A stretch of 64,000 nucleotides of DNA, taken from positions 205,478-269,477 of the forward strand of contig NZ_LT635492.1 in the NCBI RefSeq assembly GCF_900120405.1. Direction: 5' to 3'. Positions within the stretch are counted from its first letter, which is position 1. Every line of letters begins with the position of its first letter. Shown here piece by piece: positions 7,316 to 60,169 of this stretch. The translations under genes and the position numbers were made by a program. Origin of the DNA: Urinicoccus massiliensis. GTDB taxonomy: Bacteria; Bacillota; Clostridia; Tissierellales; Peptoniphilaceae. The notes beneath the pieces were generated by a model, which was not told where the DNA came from, did no database searches, and was given only the letters and a program-made list of their open reading frames with translations.

Positions 7316-7652
7316 TTTTGGGGCCAGGGGCGAAGAAATTGCCGCCAATTATCTTAGCAATCTAGGCTATAAAATTTTACGCAGAAATTATAAAAATTCC
7401 ATTGGAGAGTTGGATATTATTGCCTTGGATGGAATCACCCTGGTGGTTGTAGAGGTAAAAACTCGAAAAAATGACCGTTATGGGCATGCCTTTGAGGCGG
7501 TTCACGAATCCAAGCAAAGAAAGATTAAAGATACAACTCTTTTATTTTTACAAGAAGAAGGGAATCGCTTTTTAGAATGCCGGTTTGATGTCATAGAAGT
7601 TTATCCCTATAGGGAAAAACAGTGCAATCATTTTATTGATGCTTTTTGGTAG
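7302..7652 (+). CDS. YraN family (UPF0102) endonuclease-like protein
   Basis: Small protein (116 residues) with the restriction-endonuclease-like fold of the UPF0102 family. Visible: GARGEEIAANYL at the N-terminus, GELDIIA with the acidic residue, and VVVEVKTRK, together forming the D-(E/Q)xK nuclease motif. The biological role is not established; genetic context in many bacteria (rnhB-yraN-comM-dprA) suggests DNA or nucleic-acid processing. It begins 14 bases inside rnhB and ends 9 bases before comM. Confidence 0.9.
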   Translation: MNHISFGARGEEIAANYLSNLGYKILRRNYKNSIGELDIIALDGITLVVVEVKTRKNDRYGHAFEAVHESKQRKIKDTTLLFLQEEGNRFLECRFDVIEVYPYREKQCNHFIDAFW

Positions 7653-7661
7653 GAGGGCAAG

Positions 7662-9191
7662 ATGTATTCGAGAATTAAGACATGTACATTAGAAGGTCTT
7701 GAAGGACATATCGTTCAGGTTGAATGTGATTTATCTAGAGGATTACCCAAAATAAATATTGTAGGGCTTCCGGATGCAGCAATTAAGGAGTCGTCTGAAA
7801 GAGCCAGGGCGGCAATTAAAAACAGTCAATTAGATTTTCCTTTGAAGCGAATTACCATCAACTTAAGCCCTGCCAGTCTAAAAAAAGATGGAACGCAAAT
7901 GGATCTCGCTATTTGCATTGCAATCTTGGCTGCCAATGGAGAAGTGGCAGAAGATAAGATTGAAGACTACATATACATAGGTGAGGTCAACCTGGATGGC
8001 CAGGTAACGGCCATAGAAGGGGCCCTACCTATGATTATCTCTTTAAGGGAAAAGGGCTATCGAAAAGTCATCGTCCCCTATAAGAATCGGAAAGAATGTG
8101 CAGCTATTTCTGATATGGAAATTTATCCAGTAAATTCACTAGTGGAAGTGGTGGAGTTTATTAATGGGGAAAGGGAAATTAAGCCCCAAGCTGCAGAAAT
8201 TTTTCAAGAGTCAAGTAAACGTTATGATGTAGACTTTTCTGAAATTAGGGGTCAACACCTATTAAAGAGAGCCATGGAAATTGCGGCTGCTGGCGGACAC
8301 AATCTATTAATGATTGGGTCTCCTGGTTGTGGAAAGAGCATGGCGGCAAAAAGGCTATCAACCATCCTTCCTCCTTTAACCTTTGAAGAGTCCATAGAAG
8401 TGACAAAAATATATAGTGTAGCGGGACTTTTAAAGGACGAAAATTTAATTAAAGAGCGGCCCTTTCGGTCTCCCCACCACACCAGTTCTTCTGTTTCCTT
8501 GATAGGAGGAGGACGGATTCCAAAACCGGGGGAAGTATCCTTGGCCCATAATGGAGTCCTCTACCTGGATGAATTGGCTGAATTTTCTAGAAATGTCCTG
8601 GAAGTTTTACGCCAACCCATGGAAGATCACTCTATTCATATAGCCAGAGCACAAGCTTCCCTTACTTACCCTGCAAACTTCATGTTTGTAGGATCTATGA
8701 ACCCTTGCCCATGTGGTTATTATGGCCACCCTACTGAACCTTGCCAATGCTCCACCCAGAGCATACAAAGATACCTGGGAAAAATCAGCCATCCCCTTTT
8801 GGACCGAATTGATATCCACGTAGAATTGTCGCCGGTTAAATTTAAGGATATTTCAGCGGATATAAAGGAAGAAACCAGTGAAGAAATTCGCAAGAGGGTC
8901 ATTGGAGCAAGAAACCGTCAAATTGAACGATTTAAAGAGTCTAATTATTTCTGCAATGCCAATATTAAGGATAGAGAAATAAAAAAATACTGTAAGATTG
9001 ACCGGGATAGTGAAAAAATAATCGAGATGGCCTTTAAAAAATATCATTTTTCCGCCCGAAGCTACCATAAGATTTTAAAGGTTGCTAGGACCATTGCTGA
9101 CCTTAGTGGGTCAGAAAATATAAAGCAAGACCATTTATTGGAAGCCATTCGCTATCGAAGCGTGGAATCAAAATATTGGGGGAGTAGATGA
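7662..9191 (+). CDS. comM: ComM/YifB-family Mg-chelatase-like AAA+ ATPase
   Basis: AAA+ protein of 509 residues related to ComM, the branch-migration helicase that promotes recombination during natural transformation. N-terminal Lon-substrate-like/ChlI domain (about 1-170, with GLPDAAIKESSERARAA), Walker A GSPGCGKS near 219-226, Walker B LYLDELAEF near 300, and the family's cysteine cluster MNPCPCGYYGHP followed by CQC. C-terminal Mg-chelatase region with SARSYHKILKVARTIADL. It overlaps dprA by 4 bases. Neighbouring dprA and the pilus genes make a role in handling incoming DNA plausible, but that is context, not proof. Confidence 0.94.
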   Translation: MYSRIKTCTLEGLEGHIVQVECDLSRGLPKINIVGLPDAAIKESSERARAAIKNSQLDFPLKRITINLSPASLKKDGTQMDLAICIAILAANGEVAEDKIEDYIYIGEVNLDGQVTAIEGALPMIISLREKGYRKVIVPYKNRKECAAISDMEIYPVNSLVEVVEFINGEREIKPQAAEIFQESSKRYDVDFSEIRGQHLLKRAMEIAAAGGHNLLMIGSPGCGKSMAAKRLSTILPPLTFEESIEVTKIYSVAGLLKDENLIKERPFRSPHHTSSSVSLIGGGRIPKPGEVSLAHNGVLYLDELAEFSRNVLEVLRQPMEDHSIHIARAQASLTYPANFMFVGSMNPCPCGYYGHPTEPCQCSTQSIQRYLGKISHPLLDRIDIHVELSPVKFKDISADIKEETSEEIRKRVIGARNRQIERFKESNYFCNANIKDREIKKYCKIDRDSEKIIEMAFKKYHFSARSYHKILKVARTIADLSGSENIKQDHLLEAIRYRSVESKYWGSR

Positions 9192-10270
9192 AAACAGTCA
9201 GAGAAGGAAAGATAGCCCTTTCTCTTTTGGGATTTACTGCCGAGCAAATCCATAAAATCGAGGAGGACCTACCTAGCTATTTTCAAAATAAGGAGCTTTT
9301 TCTAGAGCAAGTCAAAAAGAATCTAGGGCCCAATCTGGTTCAGAAGATAAAAAATGCAGATGAAGAGGCCTTGCTGGCCAAGCTTAGAGAGGATATGAAC
9401 CGTTTGAAATTCCAAGTCTCGGTGGACCAGGATGAGGACTATCCTGATGAATTTAACTATATTGAAAATCCACCAGTAGTCTTATATATTAGAGGAGACC
9501 TAAGGCGTGTTTTGGAAAAAGAGCGTTGTGGTATTGTAGGAGCCAGATCTCATACAGCCTATGGCAAGGCTGTAGCCCAGGATATCTCTCGTGGGTTAGT
9601 GGATCGGGATGTGGCAGTTGTAAGTGGGATGGCTTTAGGCATTGATGCCATTTCTCAATGGGCCTGTCTGGACCAAGGAGGACGATCTATTGGCGTTTTA
9701 GGAACTGGGGTGGATGTTATTTATCCCACCAGAAACAAGGATTTATACTATAAGCTGGTGGAAGAAGGGGCTATTATAACAGAGTATCCTCCGGGATCCC
9801 AAGCCCTTCCACATCATTTTCCCCTGAGGAATCGAATTATTTCAGCTTTGAGCCAATGCGTCATTGTCATTGAAGCAAAAGAAAAGTCAGGGTCCTTGAT
9901 TACGGCCCGGTATGCAGCAGAACAGGGCAAGGACATTTTTGCCGTTCCAGGAAATATTAACTCTCCCTACAGCCAGGGAACAAATCTTTTAATCAGAGAT
10001 GGTGCCTTGATATATACCAAGCAAGAAGACCTGGATTTTATCTTTAAAAAGAAGACGAGACAAGCTGTTGACTTGGATATTGATGAAGATGAAAGACTAT
10101 ACTTGCAATGGATAGCCCAGGGCATGAATACAGCAAACTTGATATGTTTAAAAACTGGACATAAAATTGCAACAGTAAATATGATTCTTACCTTGTTAGA
10201 GATGAAGGGAATTATCCAGTCTCAAGGAACGGATCAATTTGTCCTATGTGCAGGCGTTCAAATTGATTAA
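9188..10270 (+). CDS. dprA: DNA processing protein DprA
   Basis: Loads RecA on incoming single-stranded DNA during natural transformation. 360 residues: N-terminal helical (SAM-like) region, central Rossmann-type domain with VGARSHTAYG, VVSGMALGIDAISQ, GTGVDVIYP and LRNRIIS, the KSGSLITARYA helix, and a short C-terminal winged-helix region (about 300-360). The start overlaps comM (ATGA). All hallmark segments are intact, so the product is likely functional. With comM and the downstream pilus cluster it forms a DNA-uptake-like block on the same strand. Confidence 0.96.
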   Translation: MKTVREGKIALSLLGFTAEQIHKIEEDLPSYFQNKELFLEQVKKNLGPNLVQKIKNADEEALLAKLREDMNRLKFQVSVDQDEDYPDEFNYIENPPVVLYIRGDLRRVLEKERCGIVGARSHTAYGKAVAQDISRGLVDRDVAVVSGMALGIDAISQWACLDQGGRSIGVLGTGVDVIYPTRNKDLYYKLVEEGAIITEYPPGSQALPHHFPLRNRIISALSQCVIVIEAKEKSGSLITARYAAEQGKDIFAVPGNINSPYSQGTNLLIRDGALIYTKQEDLDFIFKKKTRQAVDLDIDEDERLYLQWIAQGMNTANLICLKTGHKIATVNMILTLLEMKGIIQSQGTDQFVLCAGVQID

Positions 10271-49252: not shown

Positions 49253-50284
49253 ATGGATGAACAAAAAAAAGCTGCTTTAGAGAAAGCTTTAGCGTCAATT
49301 GAAAGACAGTATGGAAAAGGATCTGTTATGAGGTTGGGAGAACAAAAACACCTGGATATTGATGTAATACCAACAGGAAGTTTAGCTCTTGATTTAGCCC
49401 TTGGGATTGGAGGAATTCCAAGAGGACGCATTATTGAAATCTATGGTCCTGAGTCTTCTGGGAAGACAACCCTGGCCCTTCATATCTTGGCAGAAGCTCA
49501 AAAAAAAGGTGGGATTGCCGCCTTTGTTGATGCAGAGCATGCCTTGGATCCAGTTTATGCTAAAAATCTAGGGGTAGATACAGAAGAGTTGATTATTTCT
49601 CAACCGGACACTGGGGAACAAGCCTTGGAAATTACGGAGTCTCTTGTCCGCAGTAATGCCCTGGATGTTATTGTGGTGGACTCAGTAGCGGCCTTGGTTC
49701 CAAAGGCTGAAATCGAAGGCGAAATGGGTGACTCTCATATGGGATTACAGGCCAGACTCATGAGCCAAGGACTTAGAAAGCTCACAGGGGCCATTAATAA
49801 ATCTAAGGCATCCGTTATTTTCATAAACCAACTAAGAGAAAAAATAGGTGTTATGTTTGGAAATCCTGAAACGACTACTGGGGGACGTGCCTTAAAATTC
49901 TTCACTTCTGTTCGTATGGATATTCGGCGAATTGAAATCATTAAACGCGGGGATGAAATGATTGGGAACCGAGTTCGGGTTAAGGTAGTGAAAAATAAGG
50001 TGGCTCCGCCTTTCAAACAAGCAGAGTTTGACATTATGTATGGGAAGGGAATTTCTAAGCTTGGAAACCTTCTGGACGTGGGAACGGACTTAGATATTAT
50101 CAATAAGGCTGGTGCCTGGTATAGCTATAATGGAGAAAAGTTAGGACAAGGACGGGAAAATTCCAAAGAATTTTTAGCCCAAAATCCAGAACTGGCCAAA
50201 GAAATTGAAGATAAAATACGGGAGACCTTCCATTTAAATCAAGAAGGTCCAGCCGATAATCCCCAAGAAGAGACAGACAAGTGA
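49253..50284 (+). CDS. recA: Recombinase RecA
   Basis: Strand-exchange ATPase and SOS co-protease. 343 residues: N-terminal helix, Walker [10 protein letters not shown] (about 65-73), [32 protein letters not shown], the MAW-equivalent loop [14 protein letters not shown], and [22 protein letters not shown]-terminal acidic tail. AGGGAT before the ATG, two bases after cinA. No LexA-box-like sequence is visible just upstream. Its TGA overlaps the GTG of the nuclease gene, so the two are coupled. Confidence 0.98.
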
Positions 50285-51252
50285 AATTTCTATATCTGAC
50301 AGACTCTCATTTACGGGCGACATCTCCCAAGAGTCGCCTGGATAATTTTTTTGAAAGCTCCCTCTTAAAGCACAAGGAAGTATTTGATCTAGCTAATAAA
50401 TATGAAGTTGATGCAGTCCTTCACGGGGGAGACTTGTTTGATCGCCCGGATGTATCTATTGCAGTTGTTAGTGAGTTCTCAAAACTCCTAATGGATTTAA
50501 AGGCACCTTTTTATATTGTCAGTGGCAACCATGATATCTATGGACACAATCCTGAAACGATTCCAAGAACCATGTTGGGCCTATTGGATAGCATAGGTCT
50601 GGTTCATTTAATTAAGGATAAGCCGGTGGTCATAGAAAAAGATAAGAAGGTAAAAATATATGGGACTCCCTATATCTATGGTATGGATCGAGATGACCAT
50701 AAGGACGCTTACATTGTTCAAAACCGGTCAGATGAAGACTATATACTTCATATTATTCATGGGTTTTTAATCGATAAACCCATAAATGAGGTAATTTCCC
50801 ATACCTTGATTTCTGATATTGTTGAAACAAAGGCCGATATAACCTTAGCAGGTCATTATCACACTGGCTTTAAAACACAGTGTATCCAGGGAAAATACTT
50901 TATAAATCCTGGGGCCATTGTTCGGATTTCCAACAATCTGGTGGAAATGAAAAGACGCCCCAAGGTAGTCCTAATTAACTTGGAAGATGGAATACAACTG
51001 GAAGAAATTTATCTTAAGTCCGCCAAACCTGGGCCGGAAGTTTTGGACCGGTCAGAAATTGAACAACATCAATTTAAAAAGGCAAAGCTCCATGAGTTTC
51101 AAGAGCTCATTGAAGCAACGACAGACTTTTCAAAAACAGATGTCTTTGAATTAATTGATGAAATTTCTTCTACCAATGAAATCAGCCAAGAGATTCGAGA
51201 AGAAGCCTTAAAAAGAGTAAGTCAAGTTCAAGAGTCAGAAAGTAGCCAATAA
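50281..51252 (+). CDS. Mre11/SbcD-like metallophosphoesterase
   Basis: 323 residues; calcineurin-like phosphoesterase with all metal-binding motifs: DSHL (about 8-11), GGDLFD (about 48-53), SGNHD (about 80-84), a histidine in IIHGFL, and GHYHTG (about 185-190). The C-terminal about 90 residues are charged and helical and could bind the Rad50-like partner. The GTG start overlaps the recA TGA (GTGA). Two bases after its stop begins the Walker A half of a Rad50-like ATPase, so it most likely forms a nuclease-ATPase complex for DNA-end processing. Pairing is inferred from context; sequence similarity is clearest to the SbcD/Mre11 group. Confidence 0.82.
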
Positions 51253-51253
51253 A

Positions 51254-52693
51254 ATGAAAAAACAAATTAAGAGCCTACATTTAAAAAATTTTCAATCTCA
51301 TGAGGATACCGTGCTTGAATTTTTACCAGGTTTGAATGTTATATTAGGCAATTCTGACTCTGGGAAATCAGCTATCGTGCGAGGTTTACGTTGGTTATTC
51401 TATAACGAACCAATGGGAGCAGACTTTCTACAAAGAGGCAAGACCCAGGTAGAGGTAACAGCAGAATTTTATGATGGGACTATCCTAAAAAGATCTAGGC
51501 ATAAGGGAACCAATGCCTATGATTTAACCTTGTCCACGGGAGAAGCGATGCATTTTGAAGGCTTTGGGCGGACAGTCCCTAAAGAAATTGTAGATTATTT
51601 AAATTTAAAAAAATTTCCCTTGTCGCCGACGGATGACTTAACCTTGAATATTGCAGACCAGCTGGAAGGGCCCTTTCTATTACAGGAAAAGGATTCAAAT
51701 AAGGCCAATGCAATAGGTAGGCTGGTAGGAATCCACTATATCGACCAAGCCCAGAGAAATGTCAATAGAGATATAAAATCTCTAAACCAGGACCTAAAAT
51801 ATGAAGAAAATTCGCTAGAAGAATTACTGGAAAAGAAAAAAGAATATGACTTTATTGAGGACAAGACAAGACTTTTAAAGAATCTTCAAGAAATTATTGA
51901 AAAAGGCAAAAAGGCAGAAGAAAAAAAGGAATGCATTGAAAGCCATCTAAAAACCTATCAAGCCATAAGGGAAGATATTGACCAGTGTCAGAAAAGGCTT
52001 ATTGACTACAAGGGAATCGACCAATTAAAAGCCCACCTCCTGGACTTGAAAGAAGCAAAAAAAAGGCATAGTCACTTACTAAGGATATACACTAGTTATG
52101 GGCTCATACAAGATAAAATGAGTCAATGCAAAGGTCTTTTAGACCAAGTAAAAGATTTGGACCGCGCAAAGGATAGCCTAAAGAAAACCCAACTTTTGGA
52201 CAAAGACTATAAGCAAATAATGACCCTAACAAGACTTTACCAATCCAATCAAGAGTCCCTAGAAGAGGTTCAAGGTCAATTAAAAGAGGCTAAAGAATTA
52301 AAAAAGGCGAAAAAGTATTTGGAAGAAGGGAAGGGGACCTATGAAGGATTGGTCCGGCTAAAGGGATATGCAGAGACCCTAAGGGACCTCAACCAAAGAT
52401 TTTCTATAGCAGACCAATACTTTAAGAAGTTTGCTGATTTTGATAAGGCAATAACATTGACAGAAACAATTAAGTTAAATGTAGGCAAACTGGAACAGTT
52501 GAAAAATCTCGAAGCTTCTTTAGTCAAATTAGGGGCAGAAAAACAAACAAATTTAATCCAATTGAAGTCCATGGAAAAATCTATTACAGGGGATAAGGCA
52601 AAATTAGAAAATATCCTAACCGAGTTAAAAATATGTCCCATCTGTAAACGACCAATGGATCAACACACGATAGAGACAATTATTTCGAATTAA
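51254..52693 (+). CDS. Rad50/SbcC-like ATPase, N-terminal half (Walker A plus zinc hook)
   Basis: 479 residues. The N-terminal ABC-type lobe opens IKSLHLKNFQSHEDTVLEF and has Walker A GNSDSGKS at 32-39, then a Q-loop region near 143. From about 165 to 455 it is almost wholly helical and charged, with four or five imperfect repeats of about 43-50 residues marked by Y235, Y282, Y329 and Y372. It ends with the zinc-hook motif CPICKRP at 461-467, only 15 residues before the stop. No signature motif, Walker B or H-loop is present; these are in the gene at 52950. This is thus half a Rad50 head plus arm as a separate protein. Confidence 0.8.
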   Translation: MKKQIKSLHLKNFQSHEDTVLEFLPGLNVILGNSDSGKSAIVRGLRWLFYNEPMGADFLQRGKTQVEVTAEFYDGTILKRSRHKGTNAYDLTLSTGEAMHFEGFGRTVPKEIVDYLNLKKFPLSPTDDLTLNIADQLEGPFLLQEKDSNKANAIGRLVGIHYIDQAQRNVNRDIKSLNQDLKYEENSLEELLEKKKEYDFIEDKTRLLKNLQEIIEKGKKAEEKKECIESHLKTYQAIREDIDQCQKRLIDYKGIDQLKAHLLDLKEAKKRHSHLLRIYTSYGLIQDKMSQCKGLLDQVKDLDRAKDSLKKTQLLDKDYKQIMTLTRLYQSNQESLEEVQGQLKEAKELKKAKKYLEEGKGTYEGLVRLKGYAETLRDLNQRFSIADQYFKKFADFDKAITLTETIKLNVGKLEQLKNLEASLVKLGAEKQTNLIQLKSMEKSITGDKAKLENILTELKICPICKRPMDQHTIETIISN

Positions 52694-52710
52694 AATGAAA
52701 GGGCTTAGCT

Positions 52711-52947
52711 ATGAATTATGAAGAACAAATCAGTGCTTTAGAACAAAAAATTTCTTATGCAACAGAACAGAAGAATAAGGCAGAAGCTCGCTTGGAAAGC
52801 TTACAAATTCAAGAAAAGGACTTGCTAAACCAGCTAGATGAAATTGGTTTAAAACCAGAAGACCTGGAAGGAGAAATCCAAAGACTGGAAAATGAAATTA
52901 AGATGAATTTAGAGGCAGCAAACCAATATTTACCCAAGGAAATTTAG
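52711..52947 (+). CDS. Small coiled-coil protein between Rad50-like halves
   Basis: 78 residues, predicted almost fully helical with heptad-like spacing (ISALEQKISYATEQKNKAEA, EGEIQRLENEIKMN). No known domain. It has its own ATG 17 bases after the upstream stop and ends 2 bases before the next gene. The three frames differ, so it is not a frameshifted piece of a single SbcC gene. It may supply the returning strand of the coiled-coil arm, or act as a linker between the two ATPase halves. Small size keeps confidence moderate, but spacing and composition fit a real gene. Confidence 0.65.
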   Translation: MNYEEQISALEQKISYATEQKNKAEARLESLQIQEKDLLNQLDEIGLKPEDLEGEIQRLENEIKMNLEAANQYLPKEI

Positions 52948-52949
52948 CC

Positions 52950-53648
52950 ATGTCCAGTGCTTTTAAGTTTCTTGAAGACTTTAAAGAAAAAGAACAATCC
53001 AGCCTGGACCAAGCCATTGGTCAAAGGAAATATATTGAAGATAGGATTGATCTTGTTCAAAAGAAGATTGATGATATTGATAAAAAAATTGTCCTCTATT
53101 CCAATGTTGTTCTTTTGTTGCAAAAGACAGCTACATATGCCAGGACTCAAGCCAAGGCTCAAGTAGAAGATATGGTTACCAAGTGCTTGCAATATGTATT
53201 TGAAAAAGATATTGAGTTTGTAATAGATTTTCAAGAATTAAGAAACAATCCCAGTGCAGAATTTTACATTTCTTCCATATTTGATGAAGAAAAGATACTA
53301 ACAGATCCCCAATCAGCCCATGGAGGCGGAGTTGTGGATGTTTTAAGTCTAGCCTTAAGGACAGCCTTTTTAGAACTTCAAGATCCGCCCTTTGAAGGCC
53401 CCTTAATCTTAGATGAACCTGGCAAACATGTTAGTAGCGATTATATTTTTAATCTGGGAGAATTTATTCAACAGTCAACAATAAGTTTTGGACGACAAGT
53501 TATCATGGTTACCCACAACAACCACCTGGCTCAAATGGGAGATTGTACCTATTTAGTGGATATACGTAACGGAAAAAGTATCGTTAAATTAAAGGAAGAG
53601 GACCAGGCAGAAGCCAAGTCTAGCCTGACAAATATGGTGAGTGAATGA
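52950..53648 (+). CDS. Rad50/SbcC-like ATPase, C-terminal half (signature, Walker B)
   Basis: 232 residues. An N-terminal coiled coil of about 75 residues leads into the C-terminal ABC lobe: signature-type motif SAHGGGVVDVLSLALRTA (122-139), Walker B LILDEP (152-157), a D-loop-like KHVSSD, and H-loop VTHN (187-190). No Walker A. Together with the 51254-52693 product it would rebuild one complete Rad50-type ATPase site. AAGGA lies 9 bases upstream of the ATG. Downstream, 53649-53856 has no gene but contains a TATAAT (53831-53836) likely belonging to rny. Confidence 0.8.
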   Translation: MSSAFKFLEDFKEKEQSSLDQAIGQRKYIEDRIDLVQKKIDDIDKKIVLYSNVVLLLQKTATYARTQAKAQVEDMVTKCLQYVFEKDIEFVIDFQELRNNPSAEFYISSIFDEEKILTDPQSAHGGGVVDVLSLALRTAFLELQDPPFEGPLILDEPGKHVSSDYIFNLGEFIQQSTISFGRQVIMVTHNNHLAQMGDCTYLVDIRNGKSIVKLKEEDQAEAKSSLTNMVSE

Positions 53649-53856: not shown

Positions 53857-55404
53857 ATGCTTTTGCCAGCTATTTTACAATGGGTACTCTATATTTTAGG
53901 CATATTATTAGCCTGCTTTGCCGGCTACTTAATCCGAAAACATATAGGGGAAGGTAAAATAAACCAAGCGGAAGAGCAAGCAAAAAATATCCTCATTGAT
54001 GCACAAAGGGATGCTGAAACTACAAAAAAAGATCTTTTAAATGAAGCAAAAGATGAAATTCATCGTTTACGAAATAAAGTTACCGATGAAAACAATCGGC
54101 GGCAACAATCTTTAGAAGATATGGAAAAACGTCTTCTTAAAAAAGAAGAAACCATTGATAGGAAAAGTATTTCTTTAGAAAAAAAGGAAGAGCATTTAAT
54201 TAAAGAAATTGAACAAACCAATACTTTGAAAGAGGAAGCAGAAGAGCTTATATCTCAACGATTAAAAGAGTTGGAGCGAATTTCTGGACTTACTCAAGAT
54301 GAAGGGAAACAGCTTTTATTAAATGAGCTGGAAAGCGAAATTACCCAAGAATCTGCCTTGATTATTAAGGAAAAAGAGCAAGAAGTTAAAGATGAAGTTC
54401 AAAAGTATGCAAAAAATGCCATTGCTCTAGCAATTCAACGAATTGCAGCGGATACAGTAACAGAAGCTACTGTATCTGTAGTGAACCTTCCTAATGAGGA
54501 GATGAAAGGCCGAATTATTGGTCGAGAAGGCCGGAATATTCGTGCCATTGAGTCACTGACTGGTGTAGATTTAATTATAGATGATACGCCGGAAGCAGTT
54601 GTTTTATCTTGCTTTGACCCGATAAGACGTGAAGTTGCTAAGATTGCTTTAGAAAGACTTGTAACAGATGGTAGAATCCATCCTACAAAGATTGAAGAAG
54701 CGACAGAAAAAGCAAAACAAGAGGTAGATGCAACCATTAAAGAAAGTGGGGAACAGGCTGCTTATGATACAGGTATTCACGGTCTTCATCCAGAACTTAT
54801 TAAGTATTTGGGAAGATTAAAATACCGTACAAGTTATGGCCAAAATGTTCTAAAGCATTCTGTAGAAGTTGCACATATTGCAGGCCTTTTGGCAGAACAA
54901 ATTGGTGCTGATGTTAAGACGGCAAAACGTGGCGGACTACTGCATGATATTGGCAAGTCCATAGACCATGAAGTAGAGGGGCCCCATGTTGAATTAGGTG
55001 TAAATCTAGCTCGTAAGTATCGTGAAAACGAGGCTGTGATTCATTGTATTGAAGCCCACCACTATGATGTTGAATTCCATTCAGTAGAAGCCATCCTAGT
55101 CCAAGCAGCAGATGCAATTTCTGCAGCAAGACCTGGGGCACGGAGAGAAACAGTGGAATCCTATATCAAACGTCTTGAACAATTAGAAGCAATCGCCAAT
55201 AGCTTTGATGGAATTGAAAAATCTTTTGCTGTACAAGCAGGGCGTGAAGTCAGGATTATTGTTAAACCTGAACAAACCAGTGAAGCCGAAACTATATTAA
55301 TGGCTCGAAATATCAAAAAGAAAATTGAAACTGAATTAGATTATCCGGGACAAATAAAGGTTAATGTAATCAGAGAAACAAGAGCTGTTGAATATGCAAA
55401 ATAA
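53857..55404 (+). CDS. rny: Ribonuclease Y
   Basis: Membrane-anchored endoribonuclease starting mRNA decay in Firmicutes. 515 residues: N-terminal membrane helix (about 5-25), long coiled coil (about 30-200), KH domain with [17 protein letters not shown] (about 218-234), HD domain with [16 protein letters not shown] and [17 protein letters not shown] (about 340-385). The start is ambiguous: ATG 53857 is only 3 bases after AGGAGG, while the in-frame TTG at 53863 has the usual spacing. The difference is two residues. recA-rny vicinity is common in clostridia, here interrupted by the Rad50-like genes. Confidence 0.96.
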
Positions 55405-55513: not shown

Positions 55514-56470
55514 GTGAAACTATCATATATTGATGAATTTATCAGCTATTTAAAGTCCATCAAGGGACATAGTCCCTTGACCATCAAAGAATATTATTAT
55601 GATATTCAAGGCTTCTATAAATTTATTTATCCCAAACTATATCCTGACTTTGATATGGAAGACTTTACAGCGGACCAGGTAACAAGCCAGGACTTAAATG
55701 CGGTAGATAAGCAAATGGTCTATTCCTACATATCTTATTTAGATATTGTTAAGAAGAATTCCAACAGAACAAAATATCGGAAGATATCCAGCTTAAGGGC
55801 TTTTTATAAATACCTATCTACAGTCATTGATGTTTGCAGTTACAATCCTGCTGAAACCATCGATATGCCCAAGATCGAAAAGTCTCTTCCGGTTTATTTG
55901 ACCCTAGAAGAAGCCAAGAGACTTTTACAGACCATTTTATCCTCTAAACAAAAGGATATCTATAAGTATAGGGACTATGCCATGGTAACCCTCTTTCTAA
56001 ATTGTGGAATGCGGTTGTCGGAATTAACAGCAATTGATCGCAAAGATATCACAGATGATGCTCGACTGAGGGTTGTGGGTAAGGGCAATAAAGAACGTAT
56101 GATTTATTTAAATGAAGCCTGTATGGATGCCGTAAATAGATATTTAAGCTATCGAAATGGGATTCTTTCCGATAATGATGCACTCTTCTTAAGCATGCGA
56201 AGAAATCGGATGAGTCATTCCGCTACACAAAGAACCATTGAAAAGCATTTAAAAAATGCCGGTTTCGATACCGATAAGTATACGGTCCATAAATTGAGGC
56301 ATACAGCTGCTACCTTAATGTACAAGTACGGATCTGGAGACCTAAGAGCCCTACAAGAAGTTTTAGGCCATGAGTCTGTTACTACTACACAAATCTATAC
56401 CCATGTAGATAATGAAGAAATTCGTCAAACAACTTTGGACAATCCCTTGTCTCATGAAAAAGCTGATTAA
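55514..56470 (+). CDS. Tyrosine recombinase (XerC/XerD-like)
   Basis: 318 residues: N-terminal SAM-like DNA-binding domain (about 5-115) and catalytic domain with Arg in GMRLSELTAID (about 187), Lys in GKGNKERMI, HxxR in HKLRHTAAT (about 259-267), His in LGHESVTTTQ and nucleophile Tyr in IYTHV (about 295). All catalytic residues are present. Slightly longer than E. coli XerC/D. A stand-alone chromosomal location near rny/lexA and no other phage genes favour a housekeeping dimer-resolution recombinase over an integrase, but no dif site is visible here. Start is GTG after AGAGGGG. Confidence 0.88.
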   Translation: MKLSYIDEFISYLKSIKGHSPLTIKEYYYDIQGFYKFIYPKLYPDFDMEDFTADQVTSQDLNAVDKQMVYSYISYLDIVKKNSNRTKYRKISSLRAFYKYLSTVIDVCSYNPAETIDMPKIEKSLPVYLTLEEAKRLLQTILSSKQKDIYKYRDYAMVTLFLNCGMRLSELTAIDRKDITDDARLRVVGKGNKERMIYLNEACMDAVNRYLSYRNGILSDNDALFLSMRRNRMSHSATQRTIEKHLKNAGFDTDKYTVHKLRHTAATLMYKYGSGDLRALQEVLGHESVTTTQIYTHVDNEEIRQTTLDNPLSHEKAD

Positions 56471-56542
56471 ATTTTCAATATCTCTTATATAAAGAAAGAG
56501 AGAGGGAGTTAAAAGGCATAAAAATAATAAAAGAAAGCATAC

Positions 56543-56580
56543 AAAAATAGCAACAAAATAATAATTTTGTTGCTATTTTT
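56543..56580. terminator. Terminator downstream of the recombinase gene
   Basis: Perfect 17-bp stem, arms 56543-56559 and 56564-56580 (AAAAATAGCAACAAAAT and its complement), loop AATA, T-run at the 3' end; works in both directions. Confidence 0.85.
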
Positions 56581-57060
56581 ATGTTTCGTTTGGAATAAGA
56601 GAATAGGCTATTTAGCAAGCTTTTAATGATAAAATATAATTTAAATTTTATTTCATCTTATTTTTTATCTAGATTTTAAAGTCTACTGGCATGGTTTTTA
56701 TGAATGAATTCTTTACTTAAACTTTTGAATCATAGTTTTAAGATTTTAAAATAATTTCAGCTGGTATGTCGTGGATATTTTTTATTCTTTGAATCTTTAT
56801 TTTTATTTTGGCTTCATTTATTGATATGCTTCTAGATTAGGACGTCTCTGTTTTTTAATTAACTCAAAGAATTTTTATACTCACCAATTTTTATCTAATA
56901 AATGGACTTAAATAAACATTAAAAGATCCAATACACCTAAATCAGACCACTATAGAGAAATTTACCTACAAATAAAGGCCTAAAATCCACGTTTTCTGAT
57001 TTAAGGCCTTTATTTGTCGAAATTAGGTAGATATATACATATTTAATAGATTTGTATTAA
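56581..57060. other. AT-rich gene-poor gap with a decayed coding-like stretch and a hairpin
   Basis: No intact gene. On the minus strand, 56738-56824 reads as a protein-like run ending KNIHDIPAEIILKS and a stop. Just upstream in another frame lies FFELIKKQRRPNLEAYQ, as if one small gene had been broken by a frameshift. Origin not recognised. At 56963-57029 a hairpin with 20-base arms (56968-56987 and 56998-57017, one mismatch) is built on AAATAAAGGCC, with outer TACCTA/TAGGTA pairing. It is neither T-tailed nor next to a gene. Confidence 0.4.
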
Positions 57061-57070
57061 TAGATAGAAA

Positions 57071-57101
57071 TGAGGCCCTTAAAATCGATTTTGAGGCCTC
57101 A
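57071..57101 (-). terminator. Hairpin after the LysM (yneA-like) gene
   Basis: TGAGGCC at 57071-57077 pairs with GGCCTCA at 57095-57101, and an inner AAAATC/GATTTT extends the stem. On the minus strand it follows the LysM gene stop by 12 bases; T-run is weak. Confidence 0.6.
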
Positions 57102-57113
57102 AATTTATCATTA

Positions 57114-57404
57114 CTATTTATCCGAAGTTAAATCACTAATAAGTTCACTGGGTATTAAAATTTCATCTCCAGGATAAATAGTTTTTGAATCTAGGTTATT
57201 ATAGGTTTTTATTTTATCTAAGGTAACAAGGGTACTTTCATTTTCCATGGAGGAGTTCAGGGCGATGGACCACAAGGTATCTCCGCTGGTCACTGTATAG
57301 GGCACCCAGACTTCGAATTTATTTTCTTGGGCAATTAGGCCTCCAGATAATAAAAATCCCAGTAAAATAACAGCTGCAATACTTTTTATTTTTTTTAGCT
57401 TCAT
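57114..57404 (-). CDS. yneA: LysM protein, YneA-like SOS cell-division inhibitor
   Basis: 96 residues: basic start and hydrophobic segment (about 9-24, signal or membrane anchor), then one LysM domain beginning YTVTSGDTLWSIAL (about 36-49) and ending IYPGDEILIP. In Bacillus, YneA has the same size and layout, stands divergent from lexA, and halts division in the SOS response. The gene here is likewise divergent from lexA and shares a region with several LexA-box-like sequences. The family call rests on layout and context, since LysM alone is not specific. Confidence 0.72.
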   Translation of the reverse strand: MKLKKIKSIAAVILLGFLLSGGLIAQENKFEVWVPYTVTSGDTLWSIALNSSMENESTLVTLDKIKTYNNLDSKTIYPGDEILIPSELISDLTSDK

Positions 57405-57447
57405 TTGAAATCACCTCAAAAAATATTTTTATGTTCTAAACAATATA

Positions 57448-57541
57448 GAACATATATTCAGAATATTTGTTCTATATATAGAATATACGAACACAACTTA
57501 ATTGTCAAGAGAAAAAGAATATTTGTTTGAAATGTTTGTTC
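57448..57541. promoter_or_regulatory. Candidate LexA operators between yneA-like gene and lexA
   Basis: Several 12-base sites resemble the Gram-positive SOS box GAACN4GTTC with one or two changes: GAACATATATTC (57448-57459), GAATATTTGTTC (57461-57472), GAATATTTGTTT (57517-57528) and AAATGTTTGTTC (57530-57541). The first two lie on the yneA side, and the last two overlap the lexA -35 region. The clustering fits autoregulation of lexA and SOS control of the divergent gene. Confidence 0.6.
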
Positions 57542-57555
57542 TTTTTTGATATAAT
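57527..57555 (+). promoter_or_regulatory. lexA promoter
   Basis: TTGAAA (57527-57532) and TATAAT (57550-57555) with a 17-base spacer, about 29 bases before the start. Candidate LexA sites overlap the -35 box and the spacer. Confidence 0.75.
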
Positions 57556-57583
57556 ACAAACATAAAGCTATGAGGTGATAATG

Positions 57584-58201
57584 ATGTATGAAGATTTAAA
57601 GCAGCGAGAGATCGATATTTTATTTTTTATAAAAAAACAAATTGAACAAAATGGTTACCCTCCTACTGTTCGTGAAATTGCAGATGGAGTTAATGTGAAG
57701 AGTACATCTACGGTTCATAGCGCTTTAAGCAGTCTGGAGGAAAAAGACTATATTCGAAGAAATCCTACAAAGCCCAGAGCTATTGAACTTTTAGACCAGG
57801 AAGATGACTTATTAATGTCTAAAAAAAGGACAGTGGATGTCCCTATTTTAGGTCAAGTTACGGCTGGTGCCCCCATACTAGCTGTAGAAAACATAGATGA
57901 TACTATTCCCCTACCTATAGACTATACACAAGATCGGGACTTATTTGTTCTAAAAGTAAGAGGAGAGAGTATGATTAATATTGGGATTATGGATGGAGAC
58001 TATGTCATTATAGAACGTAGAAATTTCGCCAAAAATGGAGATCATGTTCTAGCCTTGTTAGATGATGAAGCGACAATAAAGACATTCTACAAAGAAGATG
58101 GCTGCGTTCGCCTTCAACCTGAGAACGACTTTATGGAGCCTATTTATGCACAAGAAGTAGCTGTTCTAGGCGTTATTGTGGGCCTGTATCGGTGGATGTA
58201 A
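57584..58201 (+). CDS. lexA: SOS repressor LexA
   Basis: Repressor of DNA-damage genes that cleaves itself when RecA filaments form. About 205 residues: N-terminal winged helix (about 1-65, with PPTVREIADGVNVKSTSTVHSAL), cleavage site Ala-Gly in VTAGAP, catalytic Ser in GESMI and Lys in EATIKTF. GTG 57575, ATG 57581 and ATG 57584 are in frame. The GAGGTGA ribosome-binding site best serves the last. It stands alone and ends at a T-tailed hairpin. Confidence 0.96.
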   Translation: MYEDLKQREIDILFFIKKQIEQNGYPPTVREIADGVNVKSTSTVHSALSSLEEKDYIRRNPTKPRAIELLDQEDDLLMSKKRTVDVPILGQVTAGAPILAVENIDDTIPLPIDYTQDRDLFVLKVRGESMINIGIMDGDYVIIERRNFAKNGDHVLALLDDEATIKTFYKEDGCVRLQPENDFMEPIYAQEVAVLGVIVGLYRWM

Positions 58202-58229
58202 TATCACAAGCATTATTTTTAAAAATCAG

Positions 58230-58254
58230 GGTGGAGCTGGACTCCACCTTTTTT
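58230..58254 (+). terminator. lexA terminator
   Basis: GGTGGAG (58230-58236) pairs with CTCCACC (58242-58248), loop of 5, followed by six T. Confidence 0.9.
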
Positions 58255-58295
58255 AAGAGTTTCTTCTAAAATTAATTAATTTTAAATATAGCTTT

Positions 58296-58398
58296 ACATT
58301 TATCTCATTCTTTTATAGTTACTTAGTTTTATTGGGGCAAGTGTATTTTTATTCGAAAAAAATAAATGCCAGGGTTTAGGACAACTCTGGCATTTATT
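58296..58398. mobile_element. Relic resembling the outer end of the ISL3 element
   Basis: This stretch can be aligned along its length to 4681-4799, the transposase-upstream end of the complete ISL3 element. Shared blocks are TTATCTCA, TTTATTG, AAGTG-ATTTTT and AAAAAATAAATG, ending with a palindrome. Bases in the hairpin differ in matched pairs (GTTGG/CCAAC in the element, GCCAG/CTGGC here). The terminal GGTTCT-like end is lost. No transposase remains. Probably a remnant of a related element, kept as a terminator. Confidence 0.5.
58357..58398 (-). terminator. hydA terminator (hairpin within the relic)
   Basis: Arms 58361-58374 and 58385-58398 form a 14-base stem (one G-U pair) around AAATGCCAG. 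On the minus strand it is followed by a T-run (complement of 58354-58362). It lies 38 bases after the hydA stop. Confidence 0.8.
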
Positions 58399-58435
58399 GA
58401 TGTTTTTTACGCTTTGTACTTGTGTAGATGAAGGA

Positions 58436-60169
58436 TTAAATTTTTTCCCTAGGAGTGTAAGTTGTATGCAATAATTCATGTGCTTTGGCTCCATAAACTT
58501 CACCCAAAAAGTCTTTATAAATCTTTTGAATCATTGGGTTTTCATGACTTTTACGGATAGGTTTATTTTTATCGATTTCATACAGCGCTTCTTGGCGTCG
58601 CTTGATAATCTCTGAATTACCATGATGGTAGGGCTGGCCAGCTCCTCCGATACAACCACCTGGACAGGCCATGATTTCGATGGCGTCGTATTTATTTTGG
58701 TCCTCTTCTACTTCTTCTAATAATTTTCGTGCATTACCGAGTCCGTGGGCAATTCCAATGGTAAAGTCTCGATTGCCTAGTTTTATGGTAGCACTACGAA
58801 TTCCTTTAAGTCCCCGTAATTCTTTAAAGTCGACATTTTCCAATTCCTTGCCAGTTAATAATTCGTAGGCTGTACGTACGGCTGCTTCAATAACACCACC
58901 GGTTGTTCCAAATATGGTTCCTGCACCTGTGGATTCACCCATCAGGTTGTCAAATTCAGATTCTTCTAAATTATCAAAATCAATTCCATAATAACGAATC
59001 ATTTGACCTAATTCCCGGGTGCTGATTACGTAGTCTACATCGCGGAAGCCGTCATTGGATAATTCGCTTCTCCTTGCTTCGGCCTTTTTAGCTGTACAGG
59101 GCATGACGGAAACAGTAACGATATTTGCAGGATCAATTCCCGTTTGCTTGGCATAGTAGGTTTTAACCATTGCCCCCATCATAATTTGGGGAGATTTACA
59201 GGATGAAGGAATATCTAATAGATTAGGAAAGTTTGTTTCAATGAATCGAACCCATGCGGGGCAACAACTGGTTAAGATGGGCATTGTTTTGTTGTTAACC
59301 ACTCGATCGACAAGTTCAGAGGCCTCTTCCATAATAGTCAGGTCTGCTGAAAAATCGGTATCAAAAACAGTATCAAAGCCAATGTCTCTCAAGGCGGTAA
59401 CGAGTTTTCCTGTAGTAATGCTTCCGGGGGCCTTATTAAATAATTCCCCTATAGCTACACGGATAGCTGGAGCTATTTGGACTACGACATGTTTATTTTC
59501 ATCTCGGATGGCCTTAAGAACTTCATGGGTTTCATCAACCTCTACAATAGCTCCTGTGGGACAAACAGCAGCACATTGGCCACAAAATGTACAGGAGGAT
59601 TCATTTAATTTCATTTGAAAGGCTGGAGCCACAATGGCATCAAAACCTCTATTTAAAGCAGATAGAGTTCCTACCGTTTGAACTTCATTACACATAGTTT
59701 CACAACGACGGCACATTACGCACTTTTCGGGAGTTCTAAGCAGAGAGGCACTTGACTTGTCAATTCGATGAGTCATTCTTTCTCCAGGATACTCTACCAT
59801 GCGGATACCTAAGCGATTGGCTAATTCCTGCAACTCACATTCTAGGTTTTTAGGGCAGACCAGACAATCTTTAGGATGGTTTGATAGGAGTAATTCCAGA
59901 TTTGTTTTTCGAGCTTCAACAGCACGAGGGGTATTGGTTTTTATAACCATACCCTCAGTAATTTCTTCTGAACATGCGGTACAAAGAGTTTTTCTCCCCT
60001 CCACTTCAACCATGCAAAGACGACAGCTGGAAGGTTTATTTTCATAACAAAAGTTATCCAGCTTCATATGGCATAGGGTAGGAATTTCAATACCTATTTC
60101 TCTAGCAAGGTCCAGAATCGTTGTTTTTGGCTTTACTTCTCTTTCTATACCATTAATATAACATTTCAT
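58436..60169 (-). CDS. hydA: [FeFe]-hydrogenase catalytic subunit (HydA, group A)
   Basis: H2-evolving or bifurcating hydrogenase of 577 residues. N-terminal [2Fe-2S] domain (Cys33, 49, 52, 66), His-ligated [4Fe-4S] site (H98, C102, C105, C111), two [4Fe-4S] clusters (C150-C160 and C193-C203). H-cluster motifs: TSCCPAW at 300-306, MPCTAKK at 356-362 and ACPGGCIGGAGQP at 501-513. A C-terminal small-subunit-like tail follows. Encoded last in an operon with HydC and HydB homologues, so the enzyme is probably an NAD(P)H- and ferredoxin-linked trimeric (electron-bifurcating type) hydrogenase. Needs maturases HydE/F/G, not in this window. Confidence 0.96.
   Translation of the reverse strand: MKCYINGIEREVKPKTTILDLAREIGIEIPTLCHMKLDNFCYENKPSSCRLCMVEVEGRKTLCTACSEEITEGMVIKTNTPRAVEARKTNLELLLSNHPKDCLVCPKNLECELQELANRLGIRMVEYPGERMTHRIDKSSASLLRTPEKCVMCRRCETMCNEVQTVGTLSALNRGFDAIVAPAFQMKLNESSCTFCGQCAAVCPTGAIVEVDETHEVLKAIRDENKHVVVQIAPAIRVAIGELFNKAPGSITTGKLVTALRDIGFDTVFDTDFSADLTIMEEASELVDRVVNNKTMPILTSCCPAWVRFIETNFPNLLDIPSSCKSPQIMMGAMVKTYYAKQTGIDPANIVTVSVMPCTAKKAEARRSELSNDGFRDVDYVISTRELGQMIRYYGIDFDNLEESEFDNLMGESTGAGTIFGTTGGVIEAAVRTAYELLTGKELENVDFKELRGLKGIRSATIKLGNRDFTIGIAHGLGNARKLLEEVEEDQNKYDAIEIMACPGGCIGGAGQPYHHGNSEIIKRRQEALYEIDKNKPIRKSHENPMIQKIYKDFLGEVYGAKAHELLHTTYTPREKI

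Follow-up and report, generated by a model that had tools for sequence, protein, structure and literature searches.

A locus in Urinicoccus massiliensis probably encodes a split Mre11-Rad50 (SbcCD-type) DNA-end-processing complex, in which the ATPase is formed from three chains (N, S and C) and the arm carried by N is modular and kinked. Whole segments of this arm have been gained and lost in evolution, in N alone. The locus lies in a window of 64,000 nucleotides, the whole stretch of DNA that was analyzed, to which the coordinates below refer.

The operon is on the + strand between a recA-like gene (49253-50284) and an rny-like gene (53857-55404), both named from their sequences, and reads M, N, S, C. 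M (50281..51252, +; 323 aa, GTG start) is a Mre11/SbcD-type metallophosphoesterase nuclease, and N (51254..52693, +; 479 aa) combines a Rad50-type ABC ATPase lobe I with an ascending arm and a zinc hook. S (52711..52947, +; 78 aa) is a small acidic coiled-coil subunit with a break at about residues 45-49 and would form the start of the descending arm, and C (52950..53648, +; 232 aa) contains a base coil at about residues 1-62 followed by lobe II. The start codon of M overlaps the stop of recA (50281-50284), which suggests that recA and the M nuclease are translationally coupled. Further downstream is a gene that, judged by reading only, resembles a tyrosine recombinase (55514-56470), and GC skew switches sign not far from it, near 58 kb (56000-60000). 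The genome is 2.09 Mb; its relative G001 belongs to the same genus, and the named relatives after it are Peptoniphilus and other Tissierellia.

M matched Pfam Metallophos (5.5e-11), and a profile of its family matched Mre11 (1ii7) at 3.4e-9. The metal residues of Mre11/SbcD metallophosphoesterases are present in M and were invariant in 15 aligned rows (D8, H10, D51, N83, H84, H160, H192 and H194). N matched Pfam AAA_23 (8.1e-18), and its lobe I (51254..51730, +) has the Walker A (residues 32-39) and Q-loop (Q136) of Rad50/SbcC, with G32, G37, K38 and Q136 invariant. In a structure search that probed mainly residues 1-198 of the AlphaFold2 model, this part of N resembled SMC/Rad50 heads with Z up to 12.2 (11.8 for Rad50); against the NCBIfam Rad50 models N stayed below the cut-off (best 60.2 bits vs 700). 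The single sequence of C (P0003) had no PDB match, and a profile of the C family matched the C-terminal lobe of Rad50 (3qkr_B) at 8.9e-10. The Walker B (DE, 53412-53417, +) and H-loop residues of C, Asp155, Glu156 and His189, were invariant in 30 rows. The GGG of the ABC signature (53322-53330, +) was invariant as well, and the position that HMMER aligns to the signature Ser was R, H, N or K in the same 30 rows; C does not have the LSGG signature of Rad50/SbcC with its Ser. In Rad50 the signature Ser touches ATP across the dimer. Because this residue is not conserved in C, the ATP chemistry may differ. The best PADLOC match was LmuB (5.3e-19), and matches to that collection appeared to be at the level of the ATPase. 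Among phage families in PHROGs, N corresponded to 16465 (1.2e-71), S to 18563 (1.9e-6) and C to 15167 (3.3e-59), which are annotated merely as exonuclease, unknown and ATPase, respectively. The present reading thus gives a likely role to proteins annotated solely as a phage exonuclease or ATPase.

The N chain ends shortly after the hook. As the earlier note on this DNA had pointed out, CPIC (residues 461-464 of 479; 52634..52645, +) leaves 15 residues to the C-terminus. Cys461, Pro462 and Cys464 were invariant in alignments of 33 and 78 rows, and CxxC was present in 182 of 182 N-halves with a measurable landmark (a 183rd, L037, has a gap at the landmark and was left out of the measured set), so CxxC is conserved in homologues, whose lack of it the note would have taken as a refutation. 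Pfam Rad50_zn_hook matched 16 of the 33 rows in alignment A1 at E up to 1 (best 1.2e-5) and was not listed for N itself (P0001) at that threshold. At the sequence level N therefore carries the putative CxxC zinc hook of Rad50/SbcC, and the chain is split after the hook instead of having it midway between equal strands of one chain. For comparison, arm lengths were estimated by fixed offsets in ordinary SbcC proteins (30 loci giving 14 complete ORFs, of which one without a signature was dropped). In these 13 proteins the N arm was 342-374 and the C arm 353-389 residues with the hook midway, in line with the equal arms that the note gives for Rad50. In the window, the N arm spans about residues 160-460, approximately 300 residues (about 290 in the note). 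The short return was correctly described for S at 78 aa; the coil of the C-half, given before as about 75 residues, is closer to 60 when the start of conservation is taken as its boundary. S and the C coil together amount to about 140 residues, vs about 300 for the N arm.

The N arm is built from a 47-residue repeat. The column profile of the 78-row N-half alignment over residues 176-455 gave autocorrelation peaks at lags 47, 94 and 141, and the lag-47 peak had z values of 9.7-14.9 across four block sizes, with none of 500 shuffles reaching it for any of them. Internal repeats, for which a detection run had been suggested, are therefore real; their spacing is exactly 47, not 43-50 as first described, and of the tyrosines proposed as markers, 235, 282 and 329 are in register and 372 is not (376 expected). 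Lag 47 was also the best lag within 20-129 in each of the four arm-length classes taken alone, with autocorrelations, on rows not reduced for redundancy, of 0.69 in the 203 class (33 phage rows), 0.65 in the 259 class (18 rows), 0.73 in the 306 class (137 rows) and 0.36 in the 352 class (18 rows). The 13 ordinary SbcC proteins had no 47-residue lag (0.01 and -0.08 in the two strands).

Five units were delimited by the profile, all on the + strand: unit 1, residues 207-253 (51872..52012); unit 2, residues 254-300 (52013..52153); unit 3, residues 301-347 (52154..52294); unit 4, residues 348-394 (52295..52435); and the hook-proximal unit 5, residues 395-441 (52436..52576). Over residues 207-441 they have one common hydrophobic profile, mainly a single stripe, and the consensus has polar residues at positions 3 (D/E), 18 (K/R) and 45 (K); position 29 is Tyr in 30% and Leu in 38% of the 306-class alignment. 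Identity to the N of the window over residues 252-459 is just 10-22%, and therefore the period is conserved while the letters drift. By profile comparison the unit showed no similarity to S or to C. Taken together, the locus resembles Mre11-Rad50/SbcCD in that a Mre11-type nuclease adjoins a Rad50-type ABC ATPase with its lobes, arm and CxxC hook, and differs in that the ATPase is in three chains, the hook is at a chain end, the strands are unequal, the arm has 47-residue units and the ABC signature is altered. The earlier suggestion that this arm is unlike the equal-strand coiled coil of Rad50 is thus supported by unequal strands, genuine repeats and a hook at the end of the N-half.

Arm lengths, measured from the lobe I landmark Gly155 to CxxC in 182 N-halves (138 at 70% identity), fall on a ladder. 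Values clustered at 154-156, 196-207 (mode 203), 212-213, 250, 258-260, 267, 303-310 and 352-357 residues, with one single length of 165 (L125, whose landmark is Asp). The main rungs are near 212, 259, 306 and 352 residues, and a phage series has rungs near 155, 203 and 250. For the rows whose landmark is not Asn (N), a period of 47.0-47.5 fitted best, with R 0.975 (103 rows, in which the 306 class is dominant). When the 306 class was set aside (75% redundancy, L037 excluded), the 24 remaining rows without Asn at the landmark deviated from whole units by a mean of 1.12 residues, compared with 11.5 for the null, and 0 of 20000 sets of uniform lengths did as well. The 26 phage rows in which Asn occupies the landmark make up a series of their own and stood outside this test. 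Arms of 207, 267 and 357 residues, and phage arms of 196-201 and 213, lie off the ladder.

On a tree built from lobes I and II with the arm excluded, the unit number changed at least 22 times, compared with 42-47 in 20 shuffles; 37 of the 100 inner branches had low support, and the unit numbers of phage rows with Asn at the landmark assume a fixed offset of 9 residues. Edge-cut or short ORFs were dropped, 208 rows were reduced to 103 at 75% redundancy, and L139, L063, L249, L250 and L214-L216 were excluded from the tree set. Reduced sets are quoted because the genome collections overlap, and one genome may occur in both (that of L003 and L133). Close relatives differ by single units: L030 and L025 have arms of 258 and 305 residues (fork support 98), and L243 differs by one unit from L240 and L198 (support 99). 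Neither of the other chains lengthens with N; on the rungs the median S is 77-86 aa and the median C 204-230 aa, where the S lengths come from 4 of the 30 rows on the 203 rung and from no row on the 156 rung. Among 43 loci with arms below 270 residues, 14 have a profile match to S and 29 have an ORF of 55-130 aa ending within 40 bases of C, some of which are not S-like. The result is a natural arm series that begins with the armless L249 and extends from one unit to five, varied within one gene. In Rad50 and SMC machines the importance of arm length and strand pairing is difficult to probe, as a change in one strand demands a matching change in the other; the separately encoded, swappable strands of this system make arm length a testable variable.

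AlphaFold2 predicted the arm as a succession of long helices. The full N-half (78 rows; pLDDT 81, pTM 0.36) had helices at residues 147-196, 199-251, 255-297, 305-392 and 396-458, followed by the hook and a short helix. For residues 252-459, comprising the last four units, confidence was higher locally and similar globally (pLDDT 92.6, pTM 0.34), and helices were placed at 255-299 (unit 2), from 302 unbroken through unit 4 to 393, and at 396-458 (unit 5). Two-residue kinks separate these predicted helices at 300-301 and 394-395; position 347 is not kinked. The predicted breaks near 253, 300 and 394 are thus spaced by whole multiples of 47, with the expected break at 347 absent.

We propose that a Rad50 chain has in effect been cut just past the hook, such that N would provide lobe I, the outgoing strand and the hook, S the first stretch of the returning strand, and C the base coil and lobe II. 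With two conserved Cys per N and none in S or C, a single zinc ion would be held jointly by the hooks of two N chains. The outgoing strand would be a long kinked helix of 47-residue segments, each about 7 nm as estimated from helix rise. The break in S, located at residues 45-49 by a conserved G-x-x-P (Pro49 is invariant in a 33-row alignment), is 60-64 residues past the hook, and the last kink of N is 67 residues before it. Because these two features are level by sequence arithmetic, S most likely pairs with the hook-proximal unit, and the C coil would pair with the base. An arm of one segment would then be strand-balanced (roughly 157 vs 140 residues), and at a 1:1:1 stoichiometry each extra segment would be unpaired, its partner being either further copies of S or a second N arm. 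By analogy with Mre11-Rad50, the action of the M nuclease on DNA ends would be driven by ATP binding across lobes I and II.

A second N arm is a possible answer, though less likely than not: the middle segments would be paired by the other N chain in a parallel homodimeric rod, clasped by the hooks and capped at its tip by S. Such an arrangement agrees with the mainly single hydrophobic stripe of each segment and with the variation of arm length in N alone, and parallel arms have been reported in Rad50 rings (PMC6969161). It fits less well with the middle units sharing their profile with the tip unit, the expected partner of S, and with the charge of the arm units, which are net positive on average (+1.0 to +2.8 each, with a spread between sequences of 2.5-3.3).

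The same two properties favor the other partner, with each further N segment docking one more S, a solution that we also regard as less likely than not. S is acidic (net charge -0.7 and -5.0 in its two parts), opposite to the average N arm unit, and the tip and middle units that it would have to recognize have one profile. Shine-Dalgarno pairing is also stronger for S than for any other gene of the operon, with medians over 69 loci of -9.7 kcal/mol for S, -7.7 for M, -7.3 for N and -3.6 for C (p 4e-6 vs N and 1e-11 vs C), where the loci are kin and the start sites were assigned by rule. No match to S was found in the 6 kb of the armless L249. Against tiling, each locus has a single S gene, S and the unit share no profile similarity, and S, at 78 aa, exceeds the 47-residue unit, so that copies would overlap. 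Shine-Dalgarno strength and opposite charges lean toward an excess of S but are far from proof. The fuller version, in which S subunits lined up one per N segment make up the returning strand and arm length is counted in subunits, is likewise unlikely, a little more so than tiling as such. If true, a subunit-tiled, modular Rad50 would represent a novel construction principle for SMC-type arms, in which the arm can grow by duplication of one segment in one gene.

It is also doubtful that superhelical phase sets the arm length, with 47 residues as a half turn. SMC arms likewise have discrete lengths across evolution, in steps of about 100 residues and with a functional period of 91 residues (PMC5344682), and two units (94 residues) lie near 91-99. 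The SMC steps are in mean strand length, whereas here just one strand varies, by 47, and the sequence itself repeats at that interval; the arm-length sections of PMC5344682 do not describe a sequence repeat. Duplication and loss of units suffice to explain the ladder without superhelical phase, although both may act.

The earlier note had favored stacked helical hairpins, which, as a stack or a zigzag helix bundle, now appear improbable. The repeats and their short breaks are in line with such a fold, as is the hydrophobic content of the arm helices (0.34-0.37), higher than in the S helices (0.26-0.27) and similar to the C coil (0.33). However, a helical-hairpin repeat has two antiparallel helices in each unit around a packed core; at most one helix was predicted per 47-residue unit, and for the last four units a pTM of 0.34 accompanied a pLDDT of 92.6. 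High local with low global confidence suits an extended chain of long helices more than a packed stack. The single N chain, modeled without a partner, showed no confident tertiary packing. A zigzag is further disfavored by the one-unit steps between close relatives such as L030 and L025, each of which would reverse the direction of the chain and thus of the hook. Covariation by mean-field DCA (117 sequences, effective 108) gave noise only on hairpin vs rod. The ladder as a set of helical hairpins was dropped after the AlphaFold2 arm predictions, which fit a kinked rod of long helices.

Among the 61 genomes searched, N and C matched an identical set of 33, including that of U. massiliensis (thresholds better than 1e-30 for N and 1e-25 for C). 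In a host collection of 34 loci, M, N, S and C were present in order in 32; the other two (L019 and L051, from one genome) are cut off within N. The first hook Cys is 18-30 residues before the end of the N-half in the complete loci. A second host collection of 80 loci had N in 75 and all four parts, in order, in 72. Searches of IMG/VR by tblastn yielded 475 stretches with N relatives, of which 80 were read; N was present in 80 of 80, N and C in 70, and all four parts in 41, just one of which has the host gene order. In host and viral loci alike, S was scored from a hit by its profile or by phmmer next to M, N and C. At the phylum level a threshold of 1e-20 gave N matches in 66 of 398 genomes; in at least five (G384, G523, G621, G632 and G693) the match covers lobe I only or lies within a much longer frame. 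C matched in 26 of 149 genomes, one match being an armless chain. Decay or misassembly of an ordinary rad50/sbcC, which would leave three ORFs where one is expected, was rejected as next to impossible, given the identical split point across Bacillota relatives and phages in host and viral loci and the unlinking of the C-half from M-N-S in Acetivibrio mesophilus. Judged from the sequences compared, the split is old and functional.

These bacteria probably use the split complex, encoded beside recA, as their resident Mre11-Rad50 for the processing of DNA ends, since SbcC and the C-half rarely co-occur and no SbcC of its own scored above the cut-off in this genome. The SbcC model TIGR00618 had no match over its cut-off there (a strict one, passed by 1 of 14 control genomes), and the best match was a 1189-aa, SMC-sized frame below it. 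Among 149 Bacillota genomes, the C-half (26 genomes) and SbcC (45 genomes, E up to 1e-40) overlapped in one, G436, where 7.9 were expected (hypergeometric 0.0005, uncorrected for kinship); the count is rough, as two 149-genome searches whose handles agree were treated as one sample. This would place a widespread Bacillota DNA-end machine beside recA in the genome of U. massiliensis.

The best viral structure match was A7KV18 (769 aa) of Bacillus phage 0305phi8-36, described in 2011 as a Mre11/Rad50 fusion for which one segment of the P-loop NTPase was not detected (PMC3175470). Locus L055 encodes an M-N fusion of A7KV18 length with separate S and C ORFs downstream, and from the protein length we infer that it is phage 0305phi8-36. 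The missing segment would then be explained, because the C-half of L055 is a separate ORF. The M-N fusion is shared with the Mre11/Rad50 fusions of the Mimivirus R555 study, whose account of them does not include a separate C-half, S or arm repeats (PMC3175470). SbcCD homologues are described as practically universal in jumbo phages (PMC7824862). Our search of titles and abstract openings found no three-way split Rad50 and no 47-residue Rad50 repeat or ladder.

Several loci depart from the common layout. M-N fusions occur in viral contigs L055, L056, L065, L066, L072 and L088, and the fused L125 continues for 141 residues past the hook, S-like by reading. L249 (G384, family f138) joins M, lobe I and lobe II in a single chain of 700 residues that has neither an arm nor CPxC; in G693 and G632, frames of 686 and 699 aa resemble it by length alone. 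In Acetivibrio mesophilus (L188 and L247) M, N and S are together with no C within 8 kb, and the C-half is elsewhere, between folD-like and rny-like genes. Similar C-halves are found in L178, L185 and L206 with no N within the stretch examined. The C-half of L008 (G014) is broken, with a 147-aa ORF and three internal TAA codons, owing to either decay or a sequencing error. In Bacillus phage vB_BboS-125 (L036), M lies in an unannotated gap (9247-10227) and an AP2-domain gene (7407-7979) is located between N and S.
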